From Ferrimonas futtsuensis DSM 18154 (GTDB taxonomy: Bacteria > Pseudomonadota > Gammaproteobacteria > Enterobacterales > Shewanellaceae), in NCBI RefSeq assembly GCF_000422645.1, contig NZ_AUGL01000001.1, forward strand, positions 1 through 64,000: DNA of 64,000 nucleotides. The letters run 5' to 3'. The notes under the pieces were generated by a model. That model was not told where the DNA came from. It worked only from the letters and a program-made list of their open reading frames with translations, and searched no databases. The first letter of the stretch is position 1. Each line of letters opens with the position of its first letter. The translations under genes were made by a program, and so were the position numbers. Positions 3,960-55,173 of the stretch are shown piece after piece.

Positions 3960-4964
3960 TCACAGAATGGGATCGAGATCTTGAACAGTGGTCAGTCCAG
4001 GCTGGACCTGTACCGGGGTGTAGTGCTGGTAGAAGGTAAAGTCCTGCTCTTCGGTCTCATGGCTTTCAGGCAGGTCGAAGTTGGCCACACAGGTGTAACC
4101 GATGCTGTAGATGCCCTCGCCGATAAAGCCAAACTCGTAACGATACTCGCCACTGGCCTCATCCAGGCTGATGTCTGCCGTAGCCACCGGGGCGACCAGA
4201 GGCGAACCCTCCGGGTATCCGGCATCGCCCACGATGTCGCCCATGGTGGTGCGATCGCGCTCTGAGGCGAACAGGTAAGCCACGTGACTGAATTCAGACA
4301 CCTCCAACAGGGAGGTCATGTCCGCTTCGCAGGCATCCTTCTGGACCTCTGAAAGTGCACCGGCGATGTTACCGGCCCCGGCCTGGTTCACCAACTGCAC
4401 CGCGGTCGGTTTAATGAACATCCCCTCCTGGCCCTGAGGGTCCACCAGTCCCTGACGCAGATTGAACTCCGCCACATAGCTGTTGATGCCGGTATTGATG
4501 GTAAAGGGCTGGTTGAAGAACAGGCGTCCGGCGGCGTCGGTGTTGCCCTTCACCCCTTTGCAACTGCCCTTGCTGTTGACCCGCAGCGGCACCACCCCCT
4601 GGTCCTGGGTGTTCACATAAGAGAGTTGCTCGGTGCCGTCTCCATCCAGGGCGTACAGGCACATGGTGTACTCCCCCACCGCCAGGGTCTGGCTGTTCAC
4701 CAGGGTGGCGCTGTCACTGCCGGTATACTGCAGCAGATCGACGCTGTCGGGACCGCCTTCGCTGAGATCGATCACCACGGGATCGCCGCCGTTCTCCGGC
4801 ACCAGGATCACTTCGTTGAAGTAGAGCACCACTTCATCCGCCTGCTCCACAGGTGCATCGGACACCGCTAAAGCAAACTGGCCGGTTTTGGGGGAAGAGG
4901 AGCCGCTGCCGCCGCAACCGGCCACAAGTAGCGCCAAACTGACAATAGAAAGGGGTTTTAACAT
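3960..4964 (-). CDS. DUF4382-like lipoprotein
   Basis: A 334-residue predicted lipoprotein. I start at the ATG at 4964 rather than further upstream because it gives a clean lipoprotein signal: MLKPLSIVSLALLVAGC, with the lipobox Cys at residue 17. A Gly/Ser-rich stretch follows, then a beta-rich region resembling DUF4382 domains (FALAVSDAPVEQADEVVLYFNEVIL), found in bacterial cell-surface proteins of unknown function. The C-terminal third contains ISLDEASGEYRYEFGFIGEGIYSI, suggesting a second beta-sandwich. No catalytic motif was found. It is divergent from the downstream phosphatase gene, with a candidate hairpin in its leader. The family assignment is from memory of the domain pattern and is moderately secure. 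Confidence 0.75.
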   Translation of the reverse strand: MLKPLSIVSLALLVAGCGGSGSSSPKTGQFALAVSDAPVEQADEVVLYFNEVILVPENGGDPVVIDLSEGGPDSVDLLQYTGSDSATLVNSQTLAVGEYTMCLYALDGDGTEQLSYVNTQDQGVVPLRVNSKGSCKGVKGNTDAAGRLFFNQPFTINTGINSYVAEFNLRQGLVDPQGQEGMFIKPTAVQLVNQAGAGNIAGALSEVQKDACEADMTSLLEVSEFSHVAYLFASERDRTTMGDIVGDAGYPEGSPLVAPVATADISLDEASGEYRYEFGFIGEGIYSIGYTCVANFDLPESHETEEQDFTFYQHYTPVQVQPGLTTVQDLDPIL

Positions 4965-4991
4965 AGGTTCACCATCAAAAAATGAGCTACA

Positions 4992-5012
4992 CTGCCCGCC
5001 GCAAAGGGGCAG
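4992..5012 (-). promoter_or_regulatory. Leader hairpin followed by a U-run, possible attenuator
   Basis: On the minus strand CTGCCC (5007-5012) can pair with GGGCAG (4992-4997), and six U follow about 9 nt later, before the lipoprotein start codon at 4964. The distance to the U-run is longer than for a standard terminator, so an attenuator role is only possible. Confidence 0.3.
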
Positions 5013-5102
5013 GCAATGGCATTGAAATATCTTCAGATGCCCTAACCTTAGTCGAAGCCTCAGCTCTTTCAAGGGGCACATACGCAAGTGATAGGAGTTG
5101 TT

Positions 5103-5750
5103 ATGGTCAAAGGGGTCATTTTCGATATGGACGGCATCCTGGTGGATTCCGAGCCGTTCTGGCAACTGGCTGAAATGGAGGTATTTCCTCAATATGGCGT
5201 GCCCATCACCCTGGAAGACACCCTAAAAACCCAGGGACTCAGAATTGATCATGTCGTTCAGTTCTGGTTCAGCCGCCACCCCTGGGACAACGCCAGCGCC
5301 AAGGAGGTCGAGCAGCGGATTCTCGACGCCATGGTGGCGGTGATCCGCGACAAGGGGCAACCCATGCCTGGCGTTGTTTCGACTCTCGACACCCTGCACC
5401 AGGCAGGCATCCCCATGGCTGTCGCCACCTCCTCGCCTCATATCCTGATGGAAGCCACCCTGGAGAAGCTTGCAATAGGCCACTACTTCCAGGCCACCTG
5501 CTCCGCCGAACATCTGCCCCTGGGCAAACCCCACCCCCAGGTCTACCTCAATGCGATCGACGCCCTCAACCTTGAGGCCACCCAGTGTCTCGCCGTCGAA
5601 GACTCCTTCAACGGCCTTTTGGCGGCCAAGGCGGCCAGGATGCACACCCTGGCCATCCCCGATGCCGAGCACAGGGCAGACCCCAGGTATGTGATCGCCG
5701 ACAGACAGTATCTCAGCCTGGAGGAGTTCTCCCTGGAGCACTGGCTGTAG
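5103..5750 (+). CDS. hxpB: HAD-superfamily hexitol/sugar phosphatase (HxpB/YniC type)
   Basis: A 215-residue haloacid dehalogenase-type phosphatase; the E. coli relative HxpB (YniC) acts on 2-deoxyglucose 6-phosphate and hexitol phosphates. HAD motif I is IFDMDGILVDSEP (nucleophile Asp8, acid/base Asp10), motif II is VATSSP, and the KP of LGKPHPQVY plus VEDSFNGLLAA supply motifs III and IV. A cap domain lies between motifs I and II. I chose the ATG at 5103 over the in-frame GTG at 5088 because AGGAG stands 5 nt before it. The gene is alone, convergent with the patatin gene and separated from it by a shared terminator. Confidence 0.88.
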   Translation: MVKGVIFDMDGILVDSEPFWQLAEMEVFPQYGVPITLEDTLKTQGLRIDHVVQFWFSRHPWDNASAKEVEQRILDAMVAVIRDKGQPMPGVVSTLDTLHQAGIPMAVATSSPHILMEATLEKLAIGHYFQATCSAEHLPLGKPHPQVYLNAIDALNLEATQCLAVEDSFNGLLAAKAARMHTLAIPDAEHRADPRYVIADRQYLSLEEFSLEHWL

Positions 5751-8104: not shown

Positions 8105-11100
8105 CTAGGACGATGCCATCAGCAATTCATGTTCACTAGGAGCCCAGTTTGCCAGCCACTGACGGCACTGTGAAGACGGCATGGGTCTGGCAAAGTGATA
8201 CCCCTGCACCAGATGACAGCCCTGGCTGCGCAGGAACGCCAGCTGATCCGGGGTTTCCACCCCTTCTGCCACCACATCCAGCTCCAGGTTGCGGCCCAGA
8301 TCCAGAATACTGCAGGTGATCGCCCGATTGGCTTTATTCTCCAGCATGGACTGGATGAAGGAGCGGTCGATCTTCAGGCTGTTCACCGCAAACTGGCTCA
8401 GGTAGGAGAGCGAGGAGTAGCCGGTACCGAAGTCGTCCACCGCCACGGAGATACCCAGTTCCCTCAGGGCCAGCAGGTGCGCCTGGGCCAGGTTCACCTG
8501 CTTCATCAGCACCCCTTCGGTGATCTCCAGACACAACTGCTCCGGCGGAATGCCTGTGCTCTGCAACACCGACTGGATAAACTCCACGTAGTCGAACTGA
8601 CGGAAGTGACTGGCCGAGACGTTGATGGAAAGCTTGAGGGCTCGATTGTCCGGCCAAGACATGAATTCCCGACAGGCGTTCTCCAGCATCCAACGATCCA
8701 GGCGGATAATCAGGCCGCTGGATTCCGCCAGTTCGATAAAGAGATCCGGTGCCACCGGACTGCCGTCCTCCCGGTTCCAGCGCATCAGCGCCTCGACACC
8801 ACACACCGAGTTATCGGAAACATCCAGCTGCGGCTGATAGTGAATCGCCAGCTTGTCCTGCTCCAGGGCCTGGCGCAGCTCATTCTCCATCTCCAGCTGA
8901 TAGGTGGCCTGGGCATCCCGCTCCCTGGTGTAGAAGCAGGCGCGTCCCCGCCCCTCCTCCTTGGCGTGGTACATCGCCAGGTCGGCGTTCTTCAGCAACT
9001 CCTCGGCCTGGCTGCCATCCTCGGGGTAGAGGGCGATGCCGATGCTCACCGACAGGTAGAGCACCTGCTGCTGCACCTGGATAGGCTCAGACAACAGACT
9101 GAGGATCCGTTCCGCCAGGGCTTCCACCTGGAGCCTGTGATTGAAATCTCGAACGATGATGACGAACTCATCACCGCCGAAGCGGCAGACGGTGCCGCTG
9201 CCCCCCACCACGGAGGAGAGCAATCGGCTGACCTCCACCAACAGGGCGTCGCCGGTGCCATGGCCGAAGGTGTCGTTGATGTGTTTGAACCTGTCCAAGT
9301 CCAGAAACAGCAGGGCCAGAGGCTCATCCGGCGATTCCTGCATCAGGGCACGGATCTGCTGATCAAACTGGGAACGGTTGGGCAGGCCGGTGACCAGGTC
9401 ATAGTTGGCCAGCTTCTGCAACGCCACCTCCTGCTTCTTGCGCTCGGAGATGTCGGAGAAAAGCACCACCAGATAGTCACCGCCGCTGTCCAGCGACATA
9501 TGGCTGAGGTTGAGCCACACCGGTACCTGGCCGCGGCCGCGGCGGCGCATCTGGGCTTCACCGCTCCAACGCCGCTGACTCTTCATCTCCGCCAGGATCT
9601 CAGATTCGGTAAGCAGGGTATCCGACAGGCTCACCCCCTCCAGCGCGCCTTTGGGGTATCCGAGGATCGCCAGGGCGGAGGGGTTGTGCGCAGTCACATT
9701 GTACTCCGCATCCAGAATCATCATCCCCTCGGTGGTGTTCTCCATGGCATGGGCATAGAGGGTGTGCAGATGTGCCATCTTACGCACCTTGGTACGGTCG
9801 GCGTACACCCCGGCCACCAGCAGCGCCTGACCGGTATCCGGATCCCGTTCGATCACCGTGCCGGTTACCCACAGCCAGCGCCATTCGCCAATGGGGCTGA
9901 TGGCGCGAAACTCAACGTTGATTCGCTCCTGATCGCCACTCAACAACTGTTTCCAGGCCTGGGCAACAGGCTGCAGATCCTGTTTGTGCAGGGTCATTCC
10001 CACTCTGGGAATTCGCATTGGCCTGTTGGTACGCGACAGGGTGGTCTGACGGTTTTCCACATAGAAGCTGTCGCTCTTGGCATCCCACTCCCAGATGTCT
10101 GACCCGCCCCCCTGCAGCGCCAACTGCAATCTGTGCTGACTCTGCCTCAACGCCTGGTTGATCCGGCGCTGTCGACGCAGCTGGTTGCGCCAGTTCACCG
10201 CGGTGACAAACAGCATCAGTATGGTGACCGTCAGGAACAGCAGCTGCATCCCCTGCCTGGCCCACCAGTACTGCTCCACCTTGAAGTTCAGCCTCAATGG
10301 CTGCTCCTGCCAGACACCGTCAAACTCACCGTACACCAGCAGGGAATGGTTGCCCGGGGGCAAACGCGACAGGGTAATGCTGGACTCCCCATCCAGCTCG
10401 GTCATGTTGCTGGGTTTGCCGTCGAATACCAGCTGATAGCGAAAATGCACCGCCGGCCCGGTAATGAGGTTGGTGGTGCCAAGACTGATGTTCACCAGCT
10501 CGAAGTTGGGACGGATCACCATCTTCTGAAGCTGGGGGATCAGGAACAGCTCGTTGCCCTCGTCGTACTGCACCTTGACCGACTCCAGTTGAAGGCTGTT
10601 GCTGCTCCTGGCCAAGGAGATGTTCATCGGATCCACCCGCATCAGCCCGGTGGTGGTCCCAACCACCAGAGTGTCGTCGGCCAGGCGGAAGGCGGCTCCC
10701 TCATTGAGTTCGGTATTAAACAGGCCACCGTCATTGCCCACACTGATGATGGACCCGGTGTCCCTGTTGTAGCGCGCCAGCACCTGAGGACAGCCAATCA
10801 CCGCCCCCTCATTGGTTGGCTGGATGAAGTAGGGCGTGATGCAGTTGAAGCGCCACTGGTGGTTCATGCGAAACGCCAGCTTGAGGCCGGTGTCCACCTC
10901 CAGGATCCCCTCACCAAAACTGCCCACCAGCAGCTTGTCCGGCGCCACCTGGGCCATGGGGCCAAAATGGTAATCCGAGGGCTCGCCGGGCAGCCAGTTC
11001 AGCGTCGACTCGAAGCGCCTGTCCATCAGGTGGTAACGGCCAAACAACTGTTTGCCTCCCAGCCACACCTCATGACCCAGGTCCAGGATGTTGCGCACCT

Positions 11101-12496
11101 CCATCAGAGGCTGCCCTTCATCCAGAATCAACTCCAGGGTGCGACGTTCGGTATCGAACAGGTAAAGCCCCATGTCGGTGGCCAGCCAGACCCGGCCCGG
11201 CCCCTCGGTCAGGCTGAGGATCACCCGGTTGCTCAGATCCGGAAGACCGTCACTGCCAATGGCGATCCTGTGGCCCACCCCCTGCTCCCGGTCCACCAAA
11301 AACAGACCCTTGGTGGTCCCCACCAGAATCTCGGTGTCGGATATGGGCAGGGTGTTGAACGCCGCATCCAGGGCATCCAGGCCCTCCAGCAACAGGGGTT
11401 TGACCCTGCGCCCCACCAGGTCCACCTCATCCACACCCTGATCATGGGCAACGAACAACTGCTCAGGGGCGCCGCTGAACCCCCACACCAGATCCGCCCC
11501 TATCGCCGGCGAGGTGTGGGTCGAGAGGCGATCCAACACATAATCTTCCGGCTGAGAGAGCGCGGCAATGCCGGCACTGACGGTGGCCACCCAGAGGTTA
11601 TCGTTCTCATCCAGCTCAAGCTTATGCATGCTGGCCGCCACATCAAACAGCTCTTCACTGCGCCCCATGGCGGTCACTTTCAGATCCTCACCATCGATAC
11701 GGAACAGGCCCAGGGTGGTCACCACCCACAGGTTACCCTTGCTGTCCTGATGGATATCGCGAACCGAGCGCCCCACAGAATCAATCCGCAGGAACTGCTC
11801 TCCCTGGCGCAGGTAGAGTCCCCGGGTTGAGGTCAGCCATAACCGGCCTTGGCGGTCGGAGAACAGGGTGGTGAGGTTGCCCCGCTCCTTGGGCCAGGAC
11901 GCCGATTCCAGTACCTCCCCCGCCATGGAGAAGGTGATCAACTGATTGCGGGTGCCGGTCACCAGCGTGTCGCCATGGTGGACCAGGCCTTGAAAGAAGT
12001 GCTTTTGAGCGCCAATGACCGACAGCAGAGTGGCCTGCTCCTGGGCCATATCGAAACGATACAGTTGCCCCATCTCATTCAGCACCCAGAACAGATGCCC
12101 TTCCGCTTCCGTCAGCGCCGTTGAGCCGCCCCTCTGGTAGTCATGGAAGCTATCACGACCAAGCATAGACACCCGGTTGTGGGCCTCATCCAGCAAAAAC
12201 AGGTCGTGCTCACTGGAGACCAGGACCAGATTGTTTGGCAGGGCACGAACCCGGGTCAGGGTGAAGTCAGGCAGAAGAACGGTATCGGAGAAACGATCGA
12301 GACGACGAACCTTGTGGCTGGCGATGCGGTAGAGGCCATCGTGGGTCGTCACCCACAGCTGCCCCCGATCGCTGAAGGCCATATCCGTCACTGAGTTGGA
12401 GACGAAACCGGAATGATGATCGAGTACGCGGCTCTGGAAGCCGTAAACCGGTAGAGATTGTCCCAACAGCAGGACCAATAGCGTGAGCCACCTCAA
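8105..12496 (-). CDS. Membrane GGDEF/EAL c-di-GMP enzyme with periplasmic propeller sensor and PAS domain
   Basis: A 1463-residue protein predicted to make and/or break c-di-GMP. A signal peptide (about residues 1-20) leads into a two-component-regulator-type beta-propeller with repeats such as GQLWVTTHDGLYRI, then a Y_Y_Y-like domain. A membrane helix lies at about 745-765 and PAS/PAC units at about 790-1030. The diguanylate cyclase domain has intact RFGGDEF (about 1105) and no RxxD inhibitory site at the usual place. The phosphodiesterase domain has EALMRW (about 1234), SINVSASHF, LEITEG, DDFGTGYSSL, LKIDRSFI and AEGVET, so all the usual catalytic residues appear present. The only usable start is TTG at 12496. 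It lies downstream of lpdA but beyond a terminator, so it is probably transcribed alone. Confidence 0.93.
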   Translation of the reverse strand: MRWLTLLVLLLGQSLPVYGFQSRVLDHHSGFVSNSVTDMAFSDRGQLWVTTHDGLYRIASHKVRRLDRFSDTVLLPDFTLTRVRALPNNLVLVSSEHDLFLLDEAHNRVSMLGRDSFHDYQRGGSTALTEAEGHLFWVLNEMGQLYRFDMAQEQATLLSVIGAQKHFFQGLVHHGDTLVTGTRNQLITFSMAGEVLESASWPKERGNLTTLFSDRQGRLWLTSTRGLYLRQGEQFLRIDSVGRSVRDIHQDSKGNLWVVTTLGLFRIDGEDLKVTAMGRSEELFDVAASMHKLELDENDNLWVATVSAGIAALSQPEDYVLDRLSTHTSPAIGADLVWGFSGAPEQLFVAHDQGVDEVDLVGRRVKPLLLEGLDALDAAFNTLPISDTEILVGTTKGLFLVDREQGVGHRIAIGSDGLPDLSNRVILSLTEGPGRVWLATDMGLYLFDTERRTLELILDEGQPLMEVRNILDLGHEVWLGGKQLFGRYHLMDRRFESTLNWLPGEPSDYHFGPMAQVAPDKLLVGSFGEGILEVDTGLKLAFRMNHQWRFNCITPYFIQPTNEGAVIGCPQVLARYNRDTGSIISVGNDGGLFNTELNEGAAFRLADDTLVVGTTTGLMRVDPMNISLARSSNSLQLESVKVQYDEGNELFLIPQLQKMVIRPNFELVNISLGTTNLITGPAVHFRYQLVFDGKPSNMTELDGESSITLSRLPPGNHSLLVYGEFDGVWQEQPLRLNFKVEQYWWARQGMQLLFLTVTILMLFVTAVNWRNQLRRQRRINQALRQSQHRLQLALQGGGSDIWEWDAKSDSFYVENRQTTLSRTNRPMRIPRVGMTLHKQDLQPVAQAWKQLLSGDQERINVEFRAISPIGEWRWLWVTGTVIERDPDTGQALLVAGVYADRTKVRKMAHLHTLYAHAMENTTEGMMILDAEYNVTAHNPSALAILGYPKGALEGVSLSDTLLTESEILAEMKSQRRWSGEAQMRRRGRGQVPVWLNLSHMSLDSGGDYLVVLFSDISERKKQEVALQKLANYDLVTGLPNRSQFDQQIRALMQESPDEPLALLFLDLDRFKHINDTFGHGTGDALLVEVSRLLSSVVGGSGTVCRFGGDEFVIIVRDFNHRLQVEALAERILSLLSEPIQVQQQVLYLSVSIGIALYPEDGSQAEELLKNADLAMYHAKEEGRGRACFYTRERDAQATYQLEMENELRQALEQDKLAIHYQPQLDVSDNSVCGVEALMRWNREDGSPVAPDLFIELAESSGLIIRLDRWMLENACREFMSWPDNRALKLSINVSASHFRQFDYVEFIQSVLQSTGIPPEQLCLEITEGVLMKQVNLAQAHLLALRELGISVAVDDFGTGYSSLSYLSQFAVNSLKIDRSFIQSMLENKANRAITCSILDLGRNLELDVVAEGVETPDQLAFLRSQGCHLVQGYHFARPMPSSQCRQWLANWAPSEHELLMASS

Positions 12497-23413: not shown

Positions 23414-24979
23414 GTGGACGGCCACTGCTATCAGCAGGCGCGCGACCTGGGCGCGCCGCTGTTTGATATCCGCCACCTCAATCCCGACACCCTGCCGGTT
23501 GAACTGATCAGCCAGAAACTGGTGGAACGCCACCGCTGCCTGCCCCTCTCCTGTCGGGGCGGGCAGCTGTTTATCGCCACCTGCGATGCCGCCAACCTGA
23601 CGGTGCTGGAGGACTTCGAATTCAACACCGGCCTGAGGGCGGTGCCGGTTCTGGTGGACGTGAGCGCCCTGGAGCAGGTGATTGAGCAGTTCCTGGAGAG
23701 CGACTTCGACGCCCTGGAGCTGACCGAGTTGGATGAGCAGAACCTGGGCAGCATCGAGGTGGAGGAGCAGGGGGAGGAGCGGGATGTGCCTCCCGCCGCC
23801 GACGATGCCCCCATCGTCATCTACATCAACAAGCTGCTCACCGACGCCATCAAGAGAGGGGCCTCGGACCTGCATTTCGAGCCGTTTGAGGCCAGCTACC
23901 GCATCCGTTTTCGCATCGACGGCGTGCTGCACACCGTCTCCAGCCCGCCCGCCAACCTGGCCAGCCGCATCTCCGCCCGGCTCAAGGTGATGTCCAAGCT
24001 GGACATTGCCGAACGCCGGCTGCCTCAGGATGGCCGCATCAAACTGCGCCTCGGCCCTAAACGGGCCATCGACTTTCGGGTGTCCACCCTGCCCACCCTG
24101 TTTGGGGAGAAAATCGTGATGCGGATCCTCGATGGTTCCGCCGCCCTGCTTAACATCGATGTCCTCGGCTATCACCCTCCTCAGAAAGCCCTCTACCTGG
24201 GGGCACTGCAGCGGCCGCAAGGGATGATCCTGGTCACCGGCCCCACCGGTTCCGGCAAGACGGTCTCACTCTATACCGGCCTGAATATTCTCAATACCGA
24301 GCAGCGCAACATCTCCACCGCCGAAGACCCGGTAGAGATAAACCTCCCAGGCATCAACCAGGTGCAGATCAACAACCGCGCCGGACTCACCTTCGCTGCC
24401 GCCCTGCGCGCCTTTCTGCGCCAGGATCCGGATGTGGTGATGGTGGGAGAGATCCGGGATCTGGAAACCGCCGAGATCGCCATCAAGGCGGCCCAGACCG
24501 GTCACCTGGTGCTCTCCACCCTGCACACCAACTCCGCTGCCGAGACCCTGACCCGGCTGCTGAACATGGGGGTGCCCGCCTACAACATCGCCGCCTCGGT
24601 GTCACTGATCATCGCCCAGCGACTGGCAAGAAGACTCTGCCGCCACTGCAAACAACCGGAGCCCCTGACTGCCGAGGCCCTCGAGAAAGCGGGATTCAGC
24701 GACGCTCAGATCGCCTCGGGGCTCACCCTCTACCGGGCCAAGGGGTGTGAGCACTGCACCGGCGGTTACAAGGGACGCCTGGGAGTCTATGAGCTGTTGC
24801 CCATGTCGCCGCCCCTGGCTGAGCTGATCATGGCCAACGGCAACTCTCTGGAGCTGGCCCAGGTCGCCATAGAGAGTGGCATGGTGCCCCTGCGACGATC
24901 CGGCCTGACCCAGGTGGCCGCCGGCATCACCAGCCTGGCGGAGATCAACCGAATCACCGACTGGGAGGCGCAGGGATGA
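23414..24979 (+). CDS. pilB: Type IV pilus extension ATPase PilB, short N-terminus
   Basis: A 521-residue AAA-type secretion ATPase that powers pilin polymerisation at the inner membrane. The Walker A motif GPTGSGKT is at about 276-283, followed by the Asp box (TAEDPVEI), Walker B ([10 protein letters not shown]) and His box ([12 protein letters not shown]). The zinc tetracysteine is CRHC and CEHC near the C-terminus. The protein starts at GTG within [13 protein letters not shown], about 50 residues into the usual N1 domain of 560-570-residue PilB proteins. Extension upstream is blocked because the pilA stop codon lies in the same frame four codons earlier. AAGGG provides a ribosome-binding site. 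Confidence 0.93.
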
Positions 24980-26208
24980 CCCAACAGACCAAGGGGGCGG
25001 GTGCCGCCATCGTCGAGTATCTGTGGCAGGGCGCCAACGCCAGCGGCCGCCGCACCCGGGGGGAGATCCGAGCCATCAGCGCCGAGGAAGCCCGGACCCA
25101 GCTGCGCAGACAGGGGATCCACGCGGTACGGCTAAGGCGCAAGCCCACCCCCCTGTTCGGCCGGGGCGCTAGCATCACCCCGATGGAGATGGCCATGGTC
25201 ACCCGACAGATCGCCACCATGTTGATGGCCGGGGTCCCGCTGGTCACCACCCTGCAGATGCTGGGCCGCGGCCATGACAAGGAAGCGATGCGCACCCTGC
25301 TGGGGGAGATCCTGCTTCAGGTGGAAGCCGGCCTGCCCCTCTCCAAGGCATTGCGTCCCCACCCCAAGCAGTTCGACGAACTCTACTGCGACCTGGTGGA
25401 AGCCGGCGAGCACTCCGGCGCCCTGGATCGGGTGTTTGACCGCATCGCCACCTACAGGGAGAAAGCGGAAGCGCTGAAATCCAAGATCAAGAAGGCGATG
25501 TTCTACCCTGCGGCGGTGATCGTGGTGGCGGTGATCGTCACGGTGATCCTGCTGCTGTTTGTGGTGCCCCAGTTCGAGGAGATCTTTGCCAGCTTCGACG
25601 CCGAACTGCCGGTGTTTACCCAACTGGTGATTCAACTCTCCCGCTTCCTTCAACTGGCCTGGCCCTATTTCGCTGCTGGGGTGACTGTGCTGATCTGGGG
25701 CTTCATTCAGGCCCATCGCCGCTCCCAGAGGTTCAGTGACAGAGTGGACGCCCTGCTGCTGAAACTCCCCCTGGTGGGCCCCATCCTCAACAAAGGGGCG
25801 GTGGCTCGCTTCGCCCGTACCCTGGCCACCACCTTCGCCGCCGGGGTCCCCCTGATTGACGGGCTGGAGTCCGCCGCCGGTGCCGCCGGTAACGCGGTGT
25901 ATCGCAAGGCCGTCCAGTCGGTGCGCACCGAGGTGATCTCCGGACTGCAGATGAACATGGCGATGCGCACCCAGAGCGTGTTTCCCGACATGCTGGTCCA
26001 GATGGTGTTAATCGGGGAGGAGTCCGGCTCACTGGATGAGATGCTCAACAAGGTCGCCAACATCTATGAGATGCAGGTGGATGACGCCGTAGATGGCCTC
26101 TCCACCCTGATCGAACCCCTGTTGATGGTGGTCATCGGCTCACTCGTGGGTGGATTAGTGGTGGCAATGTATCTTCCGATCTTCCAATTAGGTAGCGTGG
26201 TCGGCTAG
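24976..26208 (+). CDS. pilC: Type IV pilus platform protein PilC
   Basis: A 410-residue inner-membrane protein of the GspF/PilC family that forms the platform for pilus assembly and binds PilB. Two tandem GspF domains are seen: one beginning [24 protein letters not shown] (about 75-195) and a repeat beginning [20 protein letters not shown] (about 275-400). Membrane segments lie at about 175-195, 225-245 and near the C-terminus ([22 protein letters not shown]). The start codon overlaps the pilB stop (ATGA), so translation is coupled. Confidence 0.95.
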
Positions 26209-26243
26209 GATCTACGGGTTAACTCACTAAGCCGAATCGATAA

Positions 26244-27125
26244 ATGGATTACTGGATCACCCTTTTTCACTCTCAGCCCTGGCTGTTCACTACCCTGGTC
26301 GCCCTGTTGGGCCTGATCCTGGGCAGCTTCCTCAATGTGGTGATCCATCGCCTGCCCATCATGATGGACAGGGACTGGCGCATCGAATGTCAGGAGTACT
26401 GCCAGCAGCCGGTGACCCGCACCGATCTGCCGGAAAACTTCAACCTGGCCACCCCGAGATCCCGCTGTGGCCACTGCCAGACCCCGATCCCCATGAAGCA
26501 CAACGTTCCGGTGCTCAGCTACCTGCTTCTGGGCGGCAAATGCCACAGCTGCGGCGCTGCCATTGGCCTGCGCTACCCCATGGTGGAACTGATGACCGCG
26601 GCCGTCTCGGCACTGATGGCCTGGCAGTTCGGGCCTACCCCGGCCTTTGCTGCCCTGTGGCTGCTGAGTCTGGGACTGATCGCCCTGGCCTTCATCGACG
26701 CCGACACCATGCTGCTGCCGGATCAGATCACCCTGCCCCTGCTGTGGCTGGGCCTGCTGTTCAACATCAAAGATGGCCTGGTGCCGCTGGAACAGGCGGT
26801 CCTGGGTGCGGCCTTCGGTTACCTCAGCCTGTGGAGCGTGTTCCAGCTGTTCCGAATGGTCACCGGCAAGGAGGGGATGGGCTATGGCGATTTCAAACTG
26901 CTGGCACTCTTCGGTGCCTGGCTGGGGTGGAAGCCGCTGCTGCTGATCATCCTGCTCTCCTCGGTACTTGGCGCGGTCTACGGCATACTGCAACTGGCCC
27001 TGGGCAAACTGACGCGGGACAACCCCATGCCCTTCGGTCCCTGGATCATCCTGGCGGGCTGGATAGCCCTGCTGTGGGGTGACCAGATCGTCCATTGGTA
27101 CCTGACCCGGGTGCTGGGCCTGTGA
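26244..27125 (+). CDS. pilD: Prepilin peptidase / N-methyltransferase PilD
   Basis: A 293-residue polytopic membrane aspartyl protease that cleaves the prepilin leader after Gly and methylates the new N-terminal Phe. The cytosolic loop has the four zinc-type cysteines Cys75, Cys78, Cys100 and Cys103. The catalytic aspartates are in AFIDADTMLLPDQ (Asp152 region) and GMGYGDFKLL (Asp216). It is the last pil gene of the operon, and the coaE GTG start overlaps its stop codon. Substrates here include PilA and probably other type IV-like pilins or pseudopilins elsewhere in the genome. Confidence 0.96.
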   Translation: MDYWITLFHSQPWLFTTLVALLGLILGSFLNVVIHRLPIMMDRDWRIECQEYCQQPVTRTDLPENFNLATPRSRCGHCQTPIPMKHNVPVLSYLLLGGKCHSCGAAIGLRYPMVELMTAAVSALMAWQFGPTPAFAALWLLSLGLIALAFIDADTMLLPDQITLPLLWLGLLFNIKDGLVPLEQAVLGAAFGYLSLWSVFQLFRMVTGKEGMGYGDFKLLALFGAWLGWKPLLLIILLSSVLGAVYGILQLALGKLTRDNPMPFGPWIILAGWIALLWGDQIVHWYLTRVLGL

Positions 27126-49588: not shown

Positions 49589-50539
49589 TCAGCCCAGCCT
49601 CTCCGCCACCCGCAGAACCGAGCTGCGGGAACGGGTATTGTCATCCACTTCCAGATCGCTTGGCTTGAGCGCCTTGCCCACGGTCTTCATGGTGCGGGTC
49701 TGGTTGATCTGGTCCTCGGTCAGGGGCAATCCGGGAGGCAGGGGTTCACCCTGGCTCTGGCGGCGCATGAAGCGCTTCACCATGCGATCTTCCAGCGAGT
49801 GGAAGCTGATCACCGACAGCCGCCCCTGGGGCGCCAGCGCCAGCAGAGACCCGGCCAGGGCCCGCTCAATCTCCTCGAGCTCGCTGTTGATGTAGATGCG
49901 AATCGCCTGGAAGGTCCGGGTGGCCGGATGCTTGCCCTTCTCCAGCTTGTGCTTGGGGGTGATGGACTCGATCAGCCCCGCCAGATCCCGGGTGCGGGTC
50001 AGGGGCTTGCCCTCCTCCAGATGCGCCTTGATGGCACGGGAGATGGGGCCGGCGTACTTGTCCTCACCGAAGGTACGAATCACCCAGGCGATGTCCTTGG
50101 CGTCCGCCCGCTCCAGCCACTGGGCTGCGGTCTCGCCCTGGCTGTTGTCCATGCGCATATCCAGCGGGCCGTCCCGCAGGAAACTGAAGCCGCGCTCGGC
50201 GTCGTCCAGCTGTGGGGAGGACACCCCAAGATCCAACAGGACGCCATCCACCTTGCCCTCGAGTCCGCGCTCTTTCAGGTAATCCGCCAGGCCGGAGAAG
50301 GGACCGTGGATGATGCGGAACCTGGGATCAGTCTGCTCCAGCTCCTGGGCGACCGCCACCGCCTGAGGGTCACGGTCGATGCCGTACAGGCGACCATCGG
50401 GTCCCAGGCGGGACAAGATCTCCCGGCTGTGACCACCGCGGCCAAAGGTACCGTCGACATAGGTGCCGTCCGGTTTGATGTTCAATCCGTCCACCGCCTC
50501 GTTGAGCAGCACGGTGACATGACTAAAAGTTTCCGCCAT
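49589..50539 (-). CDS. rsmH: 16S rRNA (cytosine-1402-N4)-methyltransferase RsmH
   Basis: The 316-residue SAM methyltransferase modifies C1402 in the decoding centre. [36 protein letters not shown] is the SAM-binding region, followed by [20 protein letters not shown] and [21 protein letters not shown]. It shares one base with the mraZ stop codon (coupled start) and is the second gene of the dcw cluster, the usual place (formerly mraW). Confidence 0.97.
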
Positions 50540-50997
50540 CAGAGGGCAAATTCCTGTAAACGTTGATTATCGATAAAGGCTTCCGCTTCCACTGCGGCAT
50601 GGGAGGCTTCAATCTGGTTCTGCCAGTTCTGTTCCGACCAGATCTCAAACTTGTTCAGTTGGCCCACCAGCATCAGCTGCTTCTCCAAAGACGCGAATTG
50701 ACGCAGGGGCGGCGGGATCAGTACCCGTCCCATGCGGTCCATCTCCGCGTCGCTGGCATAACCGAGCAGCAGCCGTTTTACGGCCCGCTCACTGGGCTGG
50801 GTGTCCGACAGGCGCGCCAGTTTCTGCTCCACTTCGCTCCAGGCTTGGAGGGGGTAAAGCAGCAGGCAGGGGGAGTGAATGTCTACGGTAACCACCAGGG
50901 GACCGGCGTCGTCCGCACACAACGAGGGCCGGTATCGCTTTGGTATGACGATCCGGCCTTTGGCATCAAGTGCGATGCTGCTGGCGCCTCTGAACAC
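50539..50997 (-). CDS. mraZ: Transcriptional regulator MraZ
   Basis: A 152-residue SpoVT/AbrB-like DNA-binding protein with two tandem MraZ domains; it represses the dcw operon by binding repeats in its own promoter region. The N-terminal [23 protein letters not shown] and the later [21 protein letters not shown] are the two conserved DxxGR-type motifs. Four regularly spaced boxes upstream (51040-51074) match its known binding pattern, so autoregulation is very likely. Confidence 0.96.
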
Positions 50998-51365: not shown

Positions 51366-53393
51366 CTACTGAGCCTGAGCCTGCCAGTAGAGGGAGTTGG
51401 CCGCTCCCAGGTAGGCACGATACCAGCTCAGATCTCCGTAATGGCGCAGGATGTGGTCGGCCACCAGGCCCACCCGGGCATCCCATCCCTGCAGCTCAAT
51501 CCAGTCGTAGCCGATGGCCATCTGGTCCCAGGTGGAGCTGACGCCGGTACCGTCCACACCGAAACTGGCCATGGCCGGTGCCAGGAACACACGCTCGACC
51601 AGGGCATTGGCCATACAGGTCAGAGGCTCATCGTTGTCCAACAGGCCCTCCTGACGGGCCGCAACCATGAAGCCAACATCCAGGTGGGCATGGTTGAAGT
51701 CTTCCATCTTGCCGCCACCGTTAGCCAGGAACTGATAGTCCCAATTGCACAGGTTGTTGCTCTCCATCCTCAGGTTGTCCATATAGAAACCGAGGATCTC
51801 CCTGGCCTTCTGGCCCAGGTCGCCGTTACCCTGACCCCACTTGTCCAGGTAGATCATCGCCGTACCCAGGGTCATGTCGTGGTTGAACGGCAGTGGATTG
51901 GAGAACAAGCCCCCGTCGCCATAGTCCTCATTCTTGTAGTTCACATAGAAGAAGGACCCCTGGATGGCACCGTTTTTGGTGGTGCTGAACGAGCTGTCGT
52001 GAGCGCGCACAATTCGCTCGGCCCGGCCGATGTAGTAATCCGCCCGCTCCATGTACTGGGTGAGGTTCTCACTCTTGATGTGATCCACCAGTCTCATGAT
52101 GCTGTTGAGGATCATGCCGTCGGTCAGCGCCTCATTTCTCCAGGCACCGTTATAGGGACGGCGCCAGCCGGGCACCGGCAGACCCGGAGTATTCAGGTAC
52201 AGCTTGGGTGCCAGCCCTTCGTAGGGCTGGTTGTGAATATTCAGTTCACCACGCTCAACCCGCTTCTCATCGGTGTAGTTGAACATGTGGTCAGCCAGTT
52301 CCACTGCGTAATCCAGGTACTTGGTGTCACCATAGGTCTCCGCCATACGCACATAGGCACGCATCCAGTAGTGACCCTGCCAGGCAAACTTCTTCTCATC
52401 GTTGCCATTGGTGGTGCCAATAAGCGGACGCTGGTTCGGATAACTCTTATCAAACTCTGCGTCCCAATCCGCCTGGCTGGCGACATGGGGCACGGGCGCC
52501 GACACATTGGAGGTGATCGCCTGCCAGTCGCCACTGGCCAGTCCGTGCAATAGGTGAGTGCCCTCGGCACCATCACCGGAGGCCACCACGCCCTGGTCCT
52601 GATCGAACGTCAGCGTCCGGGTCTTCTCGGAATTGTCCAGGTCCACCAGCGCCAGCGCCTGCAGCCCCCCACTTGAGTAGCTGTCATTCAGACGATAGAT
52701 CCAGCGGTACGTAGCGGCATCCGCATCCACCGCACCATCACTGATGCTAGCCTGGCTCTCGCCATCGGACGCGCTGAGCTTACCGTTGTCCACGGTGATC
52801 TCCACATAACGAGTCTTGTTGAACTCGAATGGACCAGTCAGCGATACGGTATTGCCGTTCCATCTGCCTTCGACGCTGTCGTGGCGGAATGAGAGGTAGT
52901 CTCCGTCATCGGCTGACACCAGCACGGTGCTGGCCGCAGGATCGCTGTTCACCTCATCCAGCCAGGCCACCAGCCTGAACTCGCCGTCGGCACGCCAGTC
53001 GGCAATCTCGCCATAGGCATTCTGACCGTTGAAGTAGACCGCATCCCCCTGCAGCACCGGGGCAACCTCGGGATCCGGGTCCGGCTCAGGATCCGGGTCC
53101 GGGTCCGGCTCAGGATCAGGGTCCGGCTCAGGATCCGGGTCCGGCTCAGGATCCGGGTCCGGCTCAGGATCCGGGTCCGGCTCAGGCTCGGGATCCGGGT
53201 CCGGCTCGGGATCCGGGTCCGGCTCAGGGTCCGGGTCGGGAATCACCGGCGGTGGATCGGGATCCGGGTCCGGATTACTGCTGTCGCCGCCGGAGCCACC
53301 ACAGGCACTCAGGGTAAAAGTAAGAAGTGCTGCCCCAAACAGGCTCTTCAACGGTACGATGCCGTTTTTAATCTGGTCGTCTTGCCGATTCAA
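51366..53393 (-). CDS. Surface lipoprotein with Asp-Pro-Glu-Pro linker, lectin-like and helical-toroid regions
   Basis: A 675-residue predicted lipoprotein. I start at TTG 53393, which has GGAG 8 nt before it; the upstream TTG at 53447 has no such site. The signal region ends in the lipobox LSAC (Cys31), then Gly/Ser/Asp residues. Residues about 40-112 are almost pure DPDPEP repeats, a stiff spacer. About 118-295 looks like a LamG/concanavalin-type beta-sandwich (AVYFNGQNAYGEIADW, then VEITVDNGKL). About 300-675 is helical with WQGHYWMRAYVRMAETYGD and DFNHAHLDVGFMVA, reminiscent of alpha/alpha-toroid carbohydrate-active enzymes. I do not recognise an exact family or catalytic residues. It is alone between sspB and mraZ, preceded by a c-di-GMP-I-like riboswitch and followed by a strong terminator. 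Confidence 0.8.
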   Translation of the reverse strand: MNRQDDQIKNGIVPLKSLFGAALLTFTLSACGGSGGDSSNPDPDPDPPPVIPDPDPEPDPDPEPDPDPEPEPDPDPEPDPDPEPDPDPEPDPDPEPDPDPDPEPDPDPEVAPVLQGDAVYFNGQNAYGEIADWRADGEFRLVAWLDEVNSDPAASTVLVSADDGDYLSFRHDSVEGRWNGNTVSLTGPFEFNKTRYVEITVDNGKLSASDGESQASISDGAVDADAATYRWIYRLNDSYSSGGLQALALVDLDNSEKTRTLTFDQDQGVVASGDGAEGTHLLHGLASGDWQAITSNVSAPVPHVASQADWDAEFDKSYPNQRPLIGTTNGNDEKKFAWQGHYWMRAYVRMAETYGDTKYLDYAVELADHMFNYTDEKRVERGELNIHNQPYEGLAPKLYLNTPGLPVPGWRRPYNGAWRNEALTDGMILNSIMRLVDHIKSENLTQYMERADYYIGRAERIVRAHDSSFSTTKNGAIQGSFFYVNYKNEDYGDGGLFSNPLPFNHDMTLGTAMIYLDKWGQGNGDLGQKAREILGFYMDNLRMESNNLCNWDYQFLANGGGKMEDFNHAHLDVGFMVAARQEGLLDNDEPLTCMANALVERVFLAPAMASFGVDGTGVSSTWDQMAIGYDWIELQGWDARVGLVADHILRHYGDLSWYRAYLGAANSLYWQAQAQ
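53071..53243 (-). repeat. 18-bp tandem repeat coding for DPDPEP
   Basis: About nine imperfect copies of an 18-bp unit (plus strand GGATCCGGGTCCGGCTCA) lie inside the lipoprotein gene, with one 12-bp and one 24-bp variant. Copy number changes would keep the reading frame and lengthen or shorten the surface spacer by six residues each. Confidence 0.9.
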
Positions 53394-53468
53394 GTCTGAT
53401 TCTCCAACTGTCGGCAGATAAAAGGGGCGCGCAGGCAGGGACTTCAACCCGGGAAGGAAGACCGATGC

Positions 53469-53560
53469 CAGACATGAGGTAGTCCCGCTGTCTTGCCACT
53501 GACGGTAAGACCGGTGACTTTGCGCCTCCCACTAAGGGAGTTGCCTTTATCTGCTGTCTG
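53469..53560 (-). ncRNA. c-di-GMP-I (GEMM-I) riboswitch in the lipoprotein leader
   Basis: On the minus strand the conserved blocks appear in the right order: AAAGGCAA, a short hairpin (CUCCC-UUAGU-GGGAG), GCGCAAAGUCACCGGUCU, a second arm closing with AAGACAGCGG and then GGGACUACC. The ends CAGACA (53555-53560) and UGUCUG (53469-53474) pair perfectly as the closing helix. This matches the class known from Vibrio cholerae Vc2. The first hairpin loop is UUAGU, not the common GNRA tetraloop. It lies 76 nt before the TTG start. Ligand binding is inferred from sequence only. Confidence 0.85.
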
Positions 53561-53618
53561 ATAATTGAGTGTTGAACAGGTGTCCCCAACCGGGGAAGCA
53601 CCGAAATAACTGGGGAAC

Positions 53619-53647
53619 AGAATACTGATCGGCCACTTTTTGGACAA
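53619..53647 (-). promoter_or_regulatory. Candidate promoter for the riboswitch-lipoprotein transcript
   Basis: On the minus strand TTGTCC (53642-53647) and TATTCT (53619-53624) are spaced 17 nt apart, each 4 of 6 to consensus. Transcription from here would begin about 50 nt before the aptamer. Confidence 0.45.
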
Positions 53648-53989
53648 ACCACTCAAATCCACCAAGTTGACTTGAAAAGAGGACCATTTCTGAGTGATTT
53701 ATGACCCTGTTTAATTAAAATTTATAGCGTCGTTAAACGGAATGTTGTGTAAAAAGCAGGTAAAGAGGCTGGGTAAATATCTGGGATACTGAGTATTTTT
53801 CCCATGAACTCAATCGAGAACACGGACGTCGTCGCTTGCTGGAAAACTTTAGCCCACAAAGCCATTTTTGCGATCCAGATCACACAAGCAGAATCGGTTA
53901 CAATTTGTTCAGCCTGAAGCACGGAGTTATCCCGAACCTTTCCTCCGGATTACCGAACAAAGTTCAGGGAACTTTCCATGAGAGTCCCA
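53648..53989. other. AT-rich non-coding spacer upstream of the riboswitch
   Basis: Between the candidate promoter and the sspB terminator I see no credible gene. Short open frames here lack ribosome-binding sites and family features. The stretch is much more AT-rich than its surroundings, so it may hold binding sites for regulators of the lipoprotein gene. Confidence 0.5.
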
Positions 53990-54014
53990 TAAAAAAACGC
54001 GGCCATGGCCGCGT
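53990..54014 (-). terminator. Intrinsic terminator after sspB
   Basis: A perfect palindromic stem (53997-54004 with 54007-54014) is followed on the minus strand by seven U. It lies 8 nt after the sspB stop. Confidence 0.9.
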
Positions 54015-54021
54015 TTCTTCT

Positions 54022-54459
54022 CTACTTGATCACCCTTAAGCTGGGGCGCCCCTTCGGCGGGGAGTCCGGCTTAGGTTCCACCTCTGTGGGTGAAGGTTCC
54101 GGCAAGGTCGCCTCGTCGCCCTCGAGTACCTTCTCGTACGCCTCTTCCGGCGGGAACAGGGTGCCAGCACCGTTCTCACGGGCATAGATCGCCTCTACGG
54201 CGTACAGCGGCACAATCAGCGCCTGAGGCTGACCGCCAAATCGGGCATTGAACCTGACTTCGTCGATACCCAGCTGCAGATTACCTACCGCATGAGGTGC
54301 GACGTTCAGCACGATCTGGCCATCCTTCACATACTGACGAGGGACAACCACACCGGGCAGATCCGCACTGACGGCCAGGTGGGGGGTCAGACCGTTATCC
54401 ACCAGCCAGTCATACATCGCCCGCAGCAGGTAGGGGCGTTGAGGACTCAGCTCAGACAC
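54022..54459 (-). CDS. sspB: ClpXP protease specificity-enhancing factor SspB
   Basis: A 145-residue adaptor that delivers ssrA-tagged proteins (and cleaved RseA) to ClpXP. The N-terminal LSPQRPYLLRAMYDWLVDNGLTPHL and GQIVLNVAPHAVGNLQLGIDEVRFNARFGG are the substrate-binding domain. After an acidic/Pro-rich linker the C-terminal GRPSLRVIK is the ClpX-binding motif. I start at GTG 54459 by similarity to E. coli (MDLSQLTPRRPY); it overlaps the sspA stop codon. A GTG five codons upstream is less likely. The link to degS in this window is indirect, via RseA degradation. Confidence 0.93.
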   Translation of the reverse strand: MSELSPQRPYLLRAMYDWLVDNGLTPHLAVSADLPGVVVPRQYVKDGQIVLNVAPHAVGNLQLGIDEVRFNARFGGQPQALIVPLYAVEAIYARENGAGTLFPPEEAYEKVLEGDEATLPEPSPTEVEPKPDSPPKGRPSLRVIK

Positions 54460-55081
54460 CGATGCGCAGCTCACGCTCGGCTTCGGTCAGGGAAGCCTTG
54501 AAAGACTCGCGCTCAAATACGCGGGTCATGTAGGCCTTGACCTCGTTGCTGCCACGGCCGCCCAGCTCAATACCCAGCTGAGGCAGACGCCAGAACAGGG
54601 CCGCCAGATAGCAATCAACCAGGGTGAACTCCTCACTCATGAAGTAGGGAGTCTCGGCAAACACGGGAGCCAGTCCCAGGACGCTCTCAGTCAGCTCTTT
54701 GCGGGCCGCTTCCGCGCGGTCTCCACGCATGATGCGCTCGGCCAGGGCATACCAATCTTTCTGGATGCGGTACATCATCAGACGGCTCTGGCCACGGGAT
54801 ACTGGGTATACCGGCATAAGCGGTGGATGAGGGAAACGCTCGTCCAGGTACTCCATGATGATGCGGGAGTTATACAGAACAAGCTCGCGGTCCAGCAGAG
54901 TCGGTACGCTGTTGTAGGGGTTCATCTCCACCAGCTCATCCGGCAGATGGTTGGGGTCAACCTGAATCACCTCGACACCCACGCCCTTCTCAGCCAACAC
55001 GATGCGCACTTGGTGGCTGTACAGATCACTAGCACCGGAAAACAGTGCCATTACAGAGCGCTTATTGGCAGCAACAGCCAT
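54452..55081 (-). CDS. sspA: Stringent starvation protein A
   Basis: A 209-residue GST-fold protein that binds RNA polymerase and changes promoter choice under starvation and acid stress. MAVAANKRSVMALFSGASDLYSHQVRIVLAEKGV at the N-terminus is nearly the E. coli sequence, and NPYNSVPTLLDRELVLYNSRIIMEYLDERFPHPPLMPVYPV is the thioredoxin-fold part. SspA proteins lack GST activity. I start at ATG 55081 (GAGGA upstream). The gene overlaps sspB and follows the pet operon. Confidence 0.96.
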   Translation of the reverse strand: MAVAANKRSVMALFSGASDLYSHQVRIVLAEKGVGVEVIQVDPNHLPDELVEMNPYNSVPTLLDRELVLYNSRIIMEYLDERFPHPPLMPVYPVSRGQSRLMMYRIQKDWYALAERIMRGDRAEAARKELTESVLGLAPVFAETPYFMSEEFTLVDCYLAALFWRLPQLGIELGGRGSNEVKAYMTRVFERESFKASLTEAERELRIGV

Positions 55082-55173
55082 CGAATCCTCCAAACTCTTT
55101 CAGAAACGGTAAAACAGTTGGGGGCGAAACCGCCCCCAACTGCGCAAGAGGTAGATTGTAACCTTATTGGCGT

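Follow-up and report, generated by a model that had tools for sequence, protein, structure and literature searches.

A predicted c-di-GMP-I riboswitch in the leader of a putative surface lipoprotein gene of Ferrimonas futtsuensis

Results

The window analysed here, a 64-kb stretch of the Ferrimonas futtsuensis DSM 18154 genome, carries on its minus strand a candidate riboswitch and the gene behind it, which stands between sspB and mraZ. The features of this locus are as follows:

54025-55093 and 50539-50997, minus strand: sspB and mraZ, the neighbours of the riboswitch gene
53619..53647, minus strand: candidate promoter, TTGTCC, 17 nt, TATTCT, about 60 nt 5' of P1 (conserved island)
53555..53560, minus strand: 5' arm of the P1 closing helix, CAGACA (from the sequence; paired in the isolated fold)
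53475..53555, minus strand: c-di-GMP-I (GEMM-I) aptamer (RF01051, E 1e-6)
53469..53474, minus strand: 3' arm of the P1 closing helix, TGTCTG (from the sequence)
53402..53405, minus strand: Shine-Dalgarno sequence, GGAG (from the sequence)
51366..53393, minus strand: coding sequence of a predicted lipoprotein of 675 aa with a likely TTG start (open reading frame and translation)

A first-pass annotation had proposed a c-di-GMP-I aptamer here from conserved segments and a perfect closing helix on the minus strand, and both the parts and the class were borne out. The arms of P1 pair perfectly, with GCGCAAAGTC and AGCGGGACTACC between them, and cmscan with Rfam 15 at gathering thresholds over the whole window returned RF01051 at 53555-53475 (minus strand) with 49.7 bits (gathering score 35) along the full model, positions 1-87; no other Rfam family scored above its gathering threshold in the 64 kb. 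In isolation, the aptamer is computed to fold into P1 and two hairpins (-35.0 kcal/mol), and this fold together with the RF01051 structure line places helices P1, P2 and P3 at the junction. The RF01051 alignment further shows the presumed contact bases to be present (the G of AAAGGC, the first A of GCAAAG and the C of ACC), on our own mapping of the three Vc2 contact positions by the Vc2 sequence and numbering. Those positions are given as G20, A47 and C92 in an excerpt of PMC4744006.

The stability of the whole 201-nt leader is ordinary (z -0.72), with 46 of 200 shuffles folding equally well. At its 5' end, the candidate promoter matches the window at 23-27 of 29 positions in four other orthologous leaders, and the adjoining spacer at 18-45 of 55. 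By manual count, TTGTCC/TATTCT has 8 of 12 consensus matches; a promoter scan with a threshold of 9 found none at the window leader. Besides the window aptamer, the genome (4.30 Mb, 39 contigs) has three further RF01051 matches. The fourth switch of this genome (L071, 2305-2389) precedes a frame with a gametolysin-like M11 peptidase and bacterial Ig domains, and its aptamer flank has a 9-pair complement downstream.

The pairing of the aptamer with a lipoprotein gene, also proposed in the first pass, holds in the translation. The open reading frame 3' of the RF01051 match extends to 693 codons; its likely start is the TTG at 53393, 81 nt after the aptamer, with GGAG upstream at 53405-53402. TTG is likewise found in genomes G025 and G021, and the other family leaders have ATG at the corresponding place after the Shine-Dalgarno sequence. 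Judged by eye against the lipobox pattern, the product carries a lipoprotein signal: its translation reads LFGAALLTFTLSAC followed by GG, with a lipobox-like LSAC whose Cys codon lies at 53303-53301, and an Asp/Pro-rich linker.

Among ten Ferrimonas genomes, sspB and mraZ are neighbours in two carrying the gene (G000, G007) and are separated by about 0.8 Mb in the closed genomes G029 and G002; in six drafts they fall on different contigs, a result that contig ends can make misleading. Their position on either side of the riboswitch gene in the window and in G007, set against the wide gap in both closed genomes, suggests a rearrangement or insertion at the sspB/mraZ junction. The window also encodes, as had been reported for it, a large GGDEF/EAL protein and type IV pilus genes, recognised by their domains:

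8105-12496, minus strand: 1463-aa open reading frame with PAS, GGDEF and EAL domains
within 23414-27125, plus strand: genes with PilB-, PilC- and PilD-type domains
23414-24979, plus strand: PilB-type ATPase with an N-terminal MshEN domain

MshEN domains bind c-di-GMP, and the window may hold a second c-di-GMP receptor in this PilB-type ATPase. A DUF4382 protein at 3960-5192 (minus strand) is, as far as seen, unrelated to the riboswitch.

Beyond the signal and linker, two parts of the protein can be set apart:

52497..53051, minus strand: laminin-G-like (LamG-like) part (Foldseek of a low-confidence model; repeated in long paralogues)
51369..52496, minus strand: conserved C-terminal domain of about 375 aa, mostly helical (32-member alignment, weak matches, low-confidence models)

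Pfam and NCBIfam gave sub-threshold linker matches only for the window protein, with no Pfam match for the LamG-like part or the C-terminal domain, and a PDB sequence search returned a single match at E 0.99. A designed helical repeat, reached at E 0.0076 with the 32-row profile, was treated as chance. AlphaFold models, built from five sequences rather than the 32-member alignment, are of low confidence (pLDDT 49.0 for the full-length protein, 47.5 for the C-terminal domain). With the full-length model, Foldseek placed laminin LG4-5 best for the LamG-like part (E 1.3e-3), a part that long paralogues repeat several times; GH76 and GH88 toroids were listed weakly after the LamG domains, and none of these matches reached E <= 0.001. 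Pfam GH88 matched 5 of 32 family members weakly (best 3.1e-4), did not match the window copy, and gave no significant membership in the GH88/six-hairpin glycosidases. The C-terminal domain alone drew designed helical repeats, ferritins and other helical proteins in Foldseek (best E 0.16) and no toroid, a nonspecific result that speaks against leaning on the toroid. The C-terminal domain is possibly an (alpha/alpha) toroid of the glycan-active type, and the protein, probably a lipoprotein of the outer membrane, would combine a lectin-like part with a domain that may be active on glycans. We treat the combination of lectin and glycan enzyme as a lead, not a result.

Relatives of this protein occur in 11 of 146 genomes of the bacterial family, 9 of the 14 from its own genus and 2 in sister genus g5, and none was found in a plasmid collection. 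The C-terminal domain is rare in wider samples: it was matched in 6 of 394 sampled genomes of the order, counting the genome studied here and a distant match in G399, and in 369 sampled genomes of the class it was found in the genome studied here only. Records of Ferrimonas sediminicola, F. sediminum, F. kyonanensis and F. aestuarii encode the lipoprotein gene or a long paralogue.

Of 33 genes that encode the C-terminal domain, 18 have a c-di-GMP-I-type aptamer upstream in an Rfam scan of their surroundings, a count that leaves out the distant G399 match, where there is no aptamer. When genes are grouped by architecture and identity rather than by tree, the aptamer precedes every single-LamG lipoprotein (7 of 7) and every long multi-LamG protein (9 of 9), none of the remaining Ferrimonas copies of the family (0 of 8), one of the eight copies in g5, and the one copy in G187, which belongs to another bacterial family (72.8 bits). 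Two of the 18 family leaders, L089 and L099, come under RF03167 (c-di-GMP-I-GGC), which with RF03168 (c-di-GMP-I-UAU) belongs to the same clan as RF01051, the model that covers the window aptamer. Because the 14 genomes of the genus have 1 to 6 RF01051 matches each, the coupling of gene and switch goes far beyond chance, with most pairs inherited together and hence not independent. What is new is that this family is repeatedly coupled to a c-di-GMP-I switch, including one member in another bacterial family. We considered whether the aptamer-less copies once had a switch and dropped the idea, as a permissive Rfam scan turned up no aptamer at the eight loci of this kind that it covered.

The g5 copy with an upstream aptamer has a second family gene just downstream on the same strand, which might be co-transcribed. 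In five Ferrimonas genomes, a second lipoprotein family, with frames of about 890-930 codons, is also preceded by a c-di-GMP-I-type switch. Of these switches, two come under RF03168 and one under RF03167; the L070 copy of the family has no Pfam match. The Rfam scan places the switches at:

L070, 1785-1864: second-family switch
L076, 1588-1667: second-family switch
L080, 4897-4976: second-family switch
L084, 5140-5220: second-family switch
L088, 5244-5324: second-family switch

Within and downstream of the window aptamer, three further elements form a candidate expression platform:

53544..53554, minus strand: 5' flank of the aptamer, GCAGATAAAGG, to which the anti-aptamer strand would pair (can form 11 contiguous pairs with 53414-53424)
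53414..53424, minus strand: anti-aptamer strand CTTTTATCTGC (complementarity; equivalent strand in 15 of 18 family leaders)
53383..53416, minus strand: hairpin TGCCGA...TCGGCA around the Shine-Dalgarno sequence and start codon (local fold -10.0 kcal/mol)

None of 400 dinucleotide shuffles of the downstream stretch reached the 11-pair helix of the window. In those 15 leaders, the aptamer 5' flank (GCAGAYAA; ACAGACAA in L099) has 7-11 contiguous complementary bases on a strand that runs directly into the ribosome-binding region, and in most of them this strand enters a hairpin UGCCGAU...AUCGGCA around the Shine-Dalgarno sequence and start. The helix was not found in three family leaders (L092, L094 at 8161, and L095). 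Shuffling of 14 leaders with the helix gave p<0.05 in nine and values between 0.055 and 0.105 in five; among ten control leaders of other genes, one had p<0.05. Just two anti-aptamer pairs change on both sides, each in one lineage: pair 6 is U-A in the 3 leaders of the window clade (the window genome, G025 and G021) against C-G in the 12 others, and at pair 1 L099 has A-U where 14 leaders have G-C.

Across five orthologous leaders, the promoter-like TTGTCC-17-TATTCT, P1 and the anti-aptamer strand are conserved and the spacers diverge. The hairpin around the ribosome-binding site (RBS) is a conserved island within the window clade, where G025 and G021 agree with the window at all 36 positions of 53417-53382, apart from a single-base insertion in G025. 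In the minimum-energy fold computed for the 201-nt leader without ligand, nine of the eleven anti-aptamer pairs form; the full 11-pair helix holds a share of 0.09 of the ensemble for the window, computed on a slightly different segment, and shares run from 0.0005 to 0.73 over 14 leaders.

From these sequence features, we read the recurrent platform as a translational switch by P1 strand exchange, and we think it rather likely that the 5' leader of the predicted surface lipoprotein gene in the window contains a c-di-GMP-I riboswitch that would act on translation. Control of transcription through Rho or pausing, rather than of ribosome access, would suit so long a leader; it is quite improbable given that the recurrent downstream parts are centred on the RBS and that no terminator-like site was found on the minus strand at 53200-54050. 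Because the anti-aptamer strand shares its last bases with the RBS hairpin, whose first bases overlap it, and competes for the aptamer flank, the proposed translational switch would have two exclusive states: the aptamer with a closed RBS hairpin, or the anti-aptamer helix with a weakened one. The competition would be for bases beside the presumed ligand-contact G, in the window possibly including that G. At low c-di-GMP, the 5' flank would pair with the anti-aptamer strand and so deprive the hairpin of its base. Bound c-di-GMP would hold P1 and the core in place and leave the anti-aptamer strand free; the hairpin would close, and translation would fall. If the closed hairpin is repressive, c-di-GMP would thus switch the gene OFF.

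Folding of the leaders in both states gives mixed results on the direction of switching. A local folding model favours OFF in 14 of 18 leaders, by less than 1 kcal/mol in 9 of those 14. In two-state folding, opening the RBS costs less in the anti-aptamer state for 9 of 14 leaders and more for 5; in that state the Shine-Dalgarno region has a lower mean unpaired probability in 11 of 14, a higher one in 2 and an equal one in 1. This lower accessibility speaks against OFF and for the same RNA parts working with opposite sign, such that c-di-GMP would turn translation ON: the hairpin loop would display the Shine-Dalgarno sequence and start, with the long-range anti-aptamer structure as the closed state. 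ON would also suit the position of the Shine-Dalgarno sequence and start between the hairpin arms, outside the outer stem, in most leaders listed, and it has a precedent in Vc1 upstream of gbpA, described in an excerpt of PMC4744006 as regulating positively. Against ON, in the local model of L099 the anti-aptamer strand takes most of the 5' arm of the hairpin that pairs with the Shine-Dalgarno sequence, which makes this leader the clearest case for OFF (3.5 kcal/mol), though a longer segment of L099 folds differently; the hairpin also closes over the Shine-Dalgarno sequence in two of the leaders without an anti-aptamer helix, L092 and L095. We hold ON to be a serious but lesser possibility, and OFF at high c-di-GMP to be somewhat likelier.

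The window aptamer itself departs from the usual architecture. Type I c-di-GMP-I aptamers are defined, in an excerpt of PMC11218506, by a GNRA tetraloop in P2 and a tetraloop receptor in P3. The P2 loop of the window aptamer is UUAGU, not GNRA, and its P3, GUCUUACC-GUCAGU-GGCAAGAC, is on inspection without the receptor pattern. That pattern is UAAG/UAUG-like, and most other aptamers show it. By eye, an ordinary helix replaces it in all three aptamers of the window clade. A script with a lenient rule called a GNRA loop in 54 of 58 aptamers, a sample biased to canonical forms by 30 best-scoring matches; the four other calls were the window, G025, G021 and L071, which the script left unparsed and which reads GCAA by eye. 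In isolated folds of six aptamers, L081 and L122 are not canonical.

A missing tetraloop-receptor contact weakens the case for ordinary high-affinity binding. In Cd1, we take A24-26U to alter the tetraloop. An excerpt of PMC9262584 reports no binding by this mutant, and with its own tetraloop missing the window aptamer could bind weakly. That the clade's aptamer is a decaying riboswitch, no longer a good c-di-GMP binder, would explain the loss of both tetraloop and receptor, and also its RF01051 scores of 47.6 to 49.9 bits, which compare with 62.1 to 76 bits for 12 other Ferrimonas family leaders under the same model (a 13th, under RF03167, scores 60.4). Yet the presumed ligand-contact bases are retained; conserved islands mark P1, the anti-aptamer strand and the RBS hairpin; and the loss is common to three genomes. 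Of 30 pairs compared between the window and G021, 23 are the same, two are changed on both sides, which also argues against decay, and five are seemingly broken in a gapped alignment; G021 is computed to fold with a different continuous P3 helix. We consider decay unlikely.

Discussion

The RNA class is already known, and the window aptamer is an unusual representative of it. With Vc2, Vc1 and Cd1 (RF01051), it has in common the covariance-model match, the P1-P2-P3 layout and the presumed contact bases; its clade differs from RF01051 systems in the UUAGU P2 loop, the missing P3 receptor pattern and the target gene. Vc2 is described in an excerpt of PMC9262584 as a translational OFF switch in which P1 is key, and the window leader is likewise proposed to be translational with P1 as the switching element. 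Vc1-gbpA of Vibrio cholerae is, similarly, a c-di-GMP-I switch before a secreted glycan-binding surface protein, GbpA being chitin-associated; in an excerpt of PMC4744006 its authors saw no anti-Shine-Dalgarno sequence in Vc1, whereas the window leader has a predicted RBS hairpin. The likeness of the window protein to (alpha/alpha) toroid glycosidases and LamG lectins remains at the level of weak matches.

We tentatively suggest that the clade's aptamer works without a tetraloop-receptor clamp, its affinity set by P1 and the competing 7-11-pair anti-aptamer helix, and that it tunes new, lineage-restricted surface proteins with LamG and helical domains that may bind or remodel matrix glycans as c-di-GMP changes. 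As a natural aptamer without tetraloop docking, it would be useful for asking how important that contact is in vivo.

In the literature searched, no paper brings Ferrimonas and c-di-GMP together, and the one that has both Ferrimonas and riboswitches concerns MetJ. Added here are a protein family coupled to the switch, a predicted expression platform seen again in paralogues and in a second bacterial family, and a clamp-less aptamer. If c-di-GMP sets production of the downstream lipoprotein, as first proposed from the sequence, cells would change its level as they move from a free to an attached way of life or back. This would lend a regulatory meaning, surface life under c-di-GMP, to a rare and uncharacterised protein family, which is a promising candidate part of the attach-or-leave programme in Ferrimonas.
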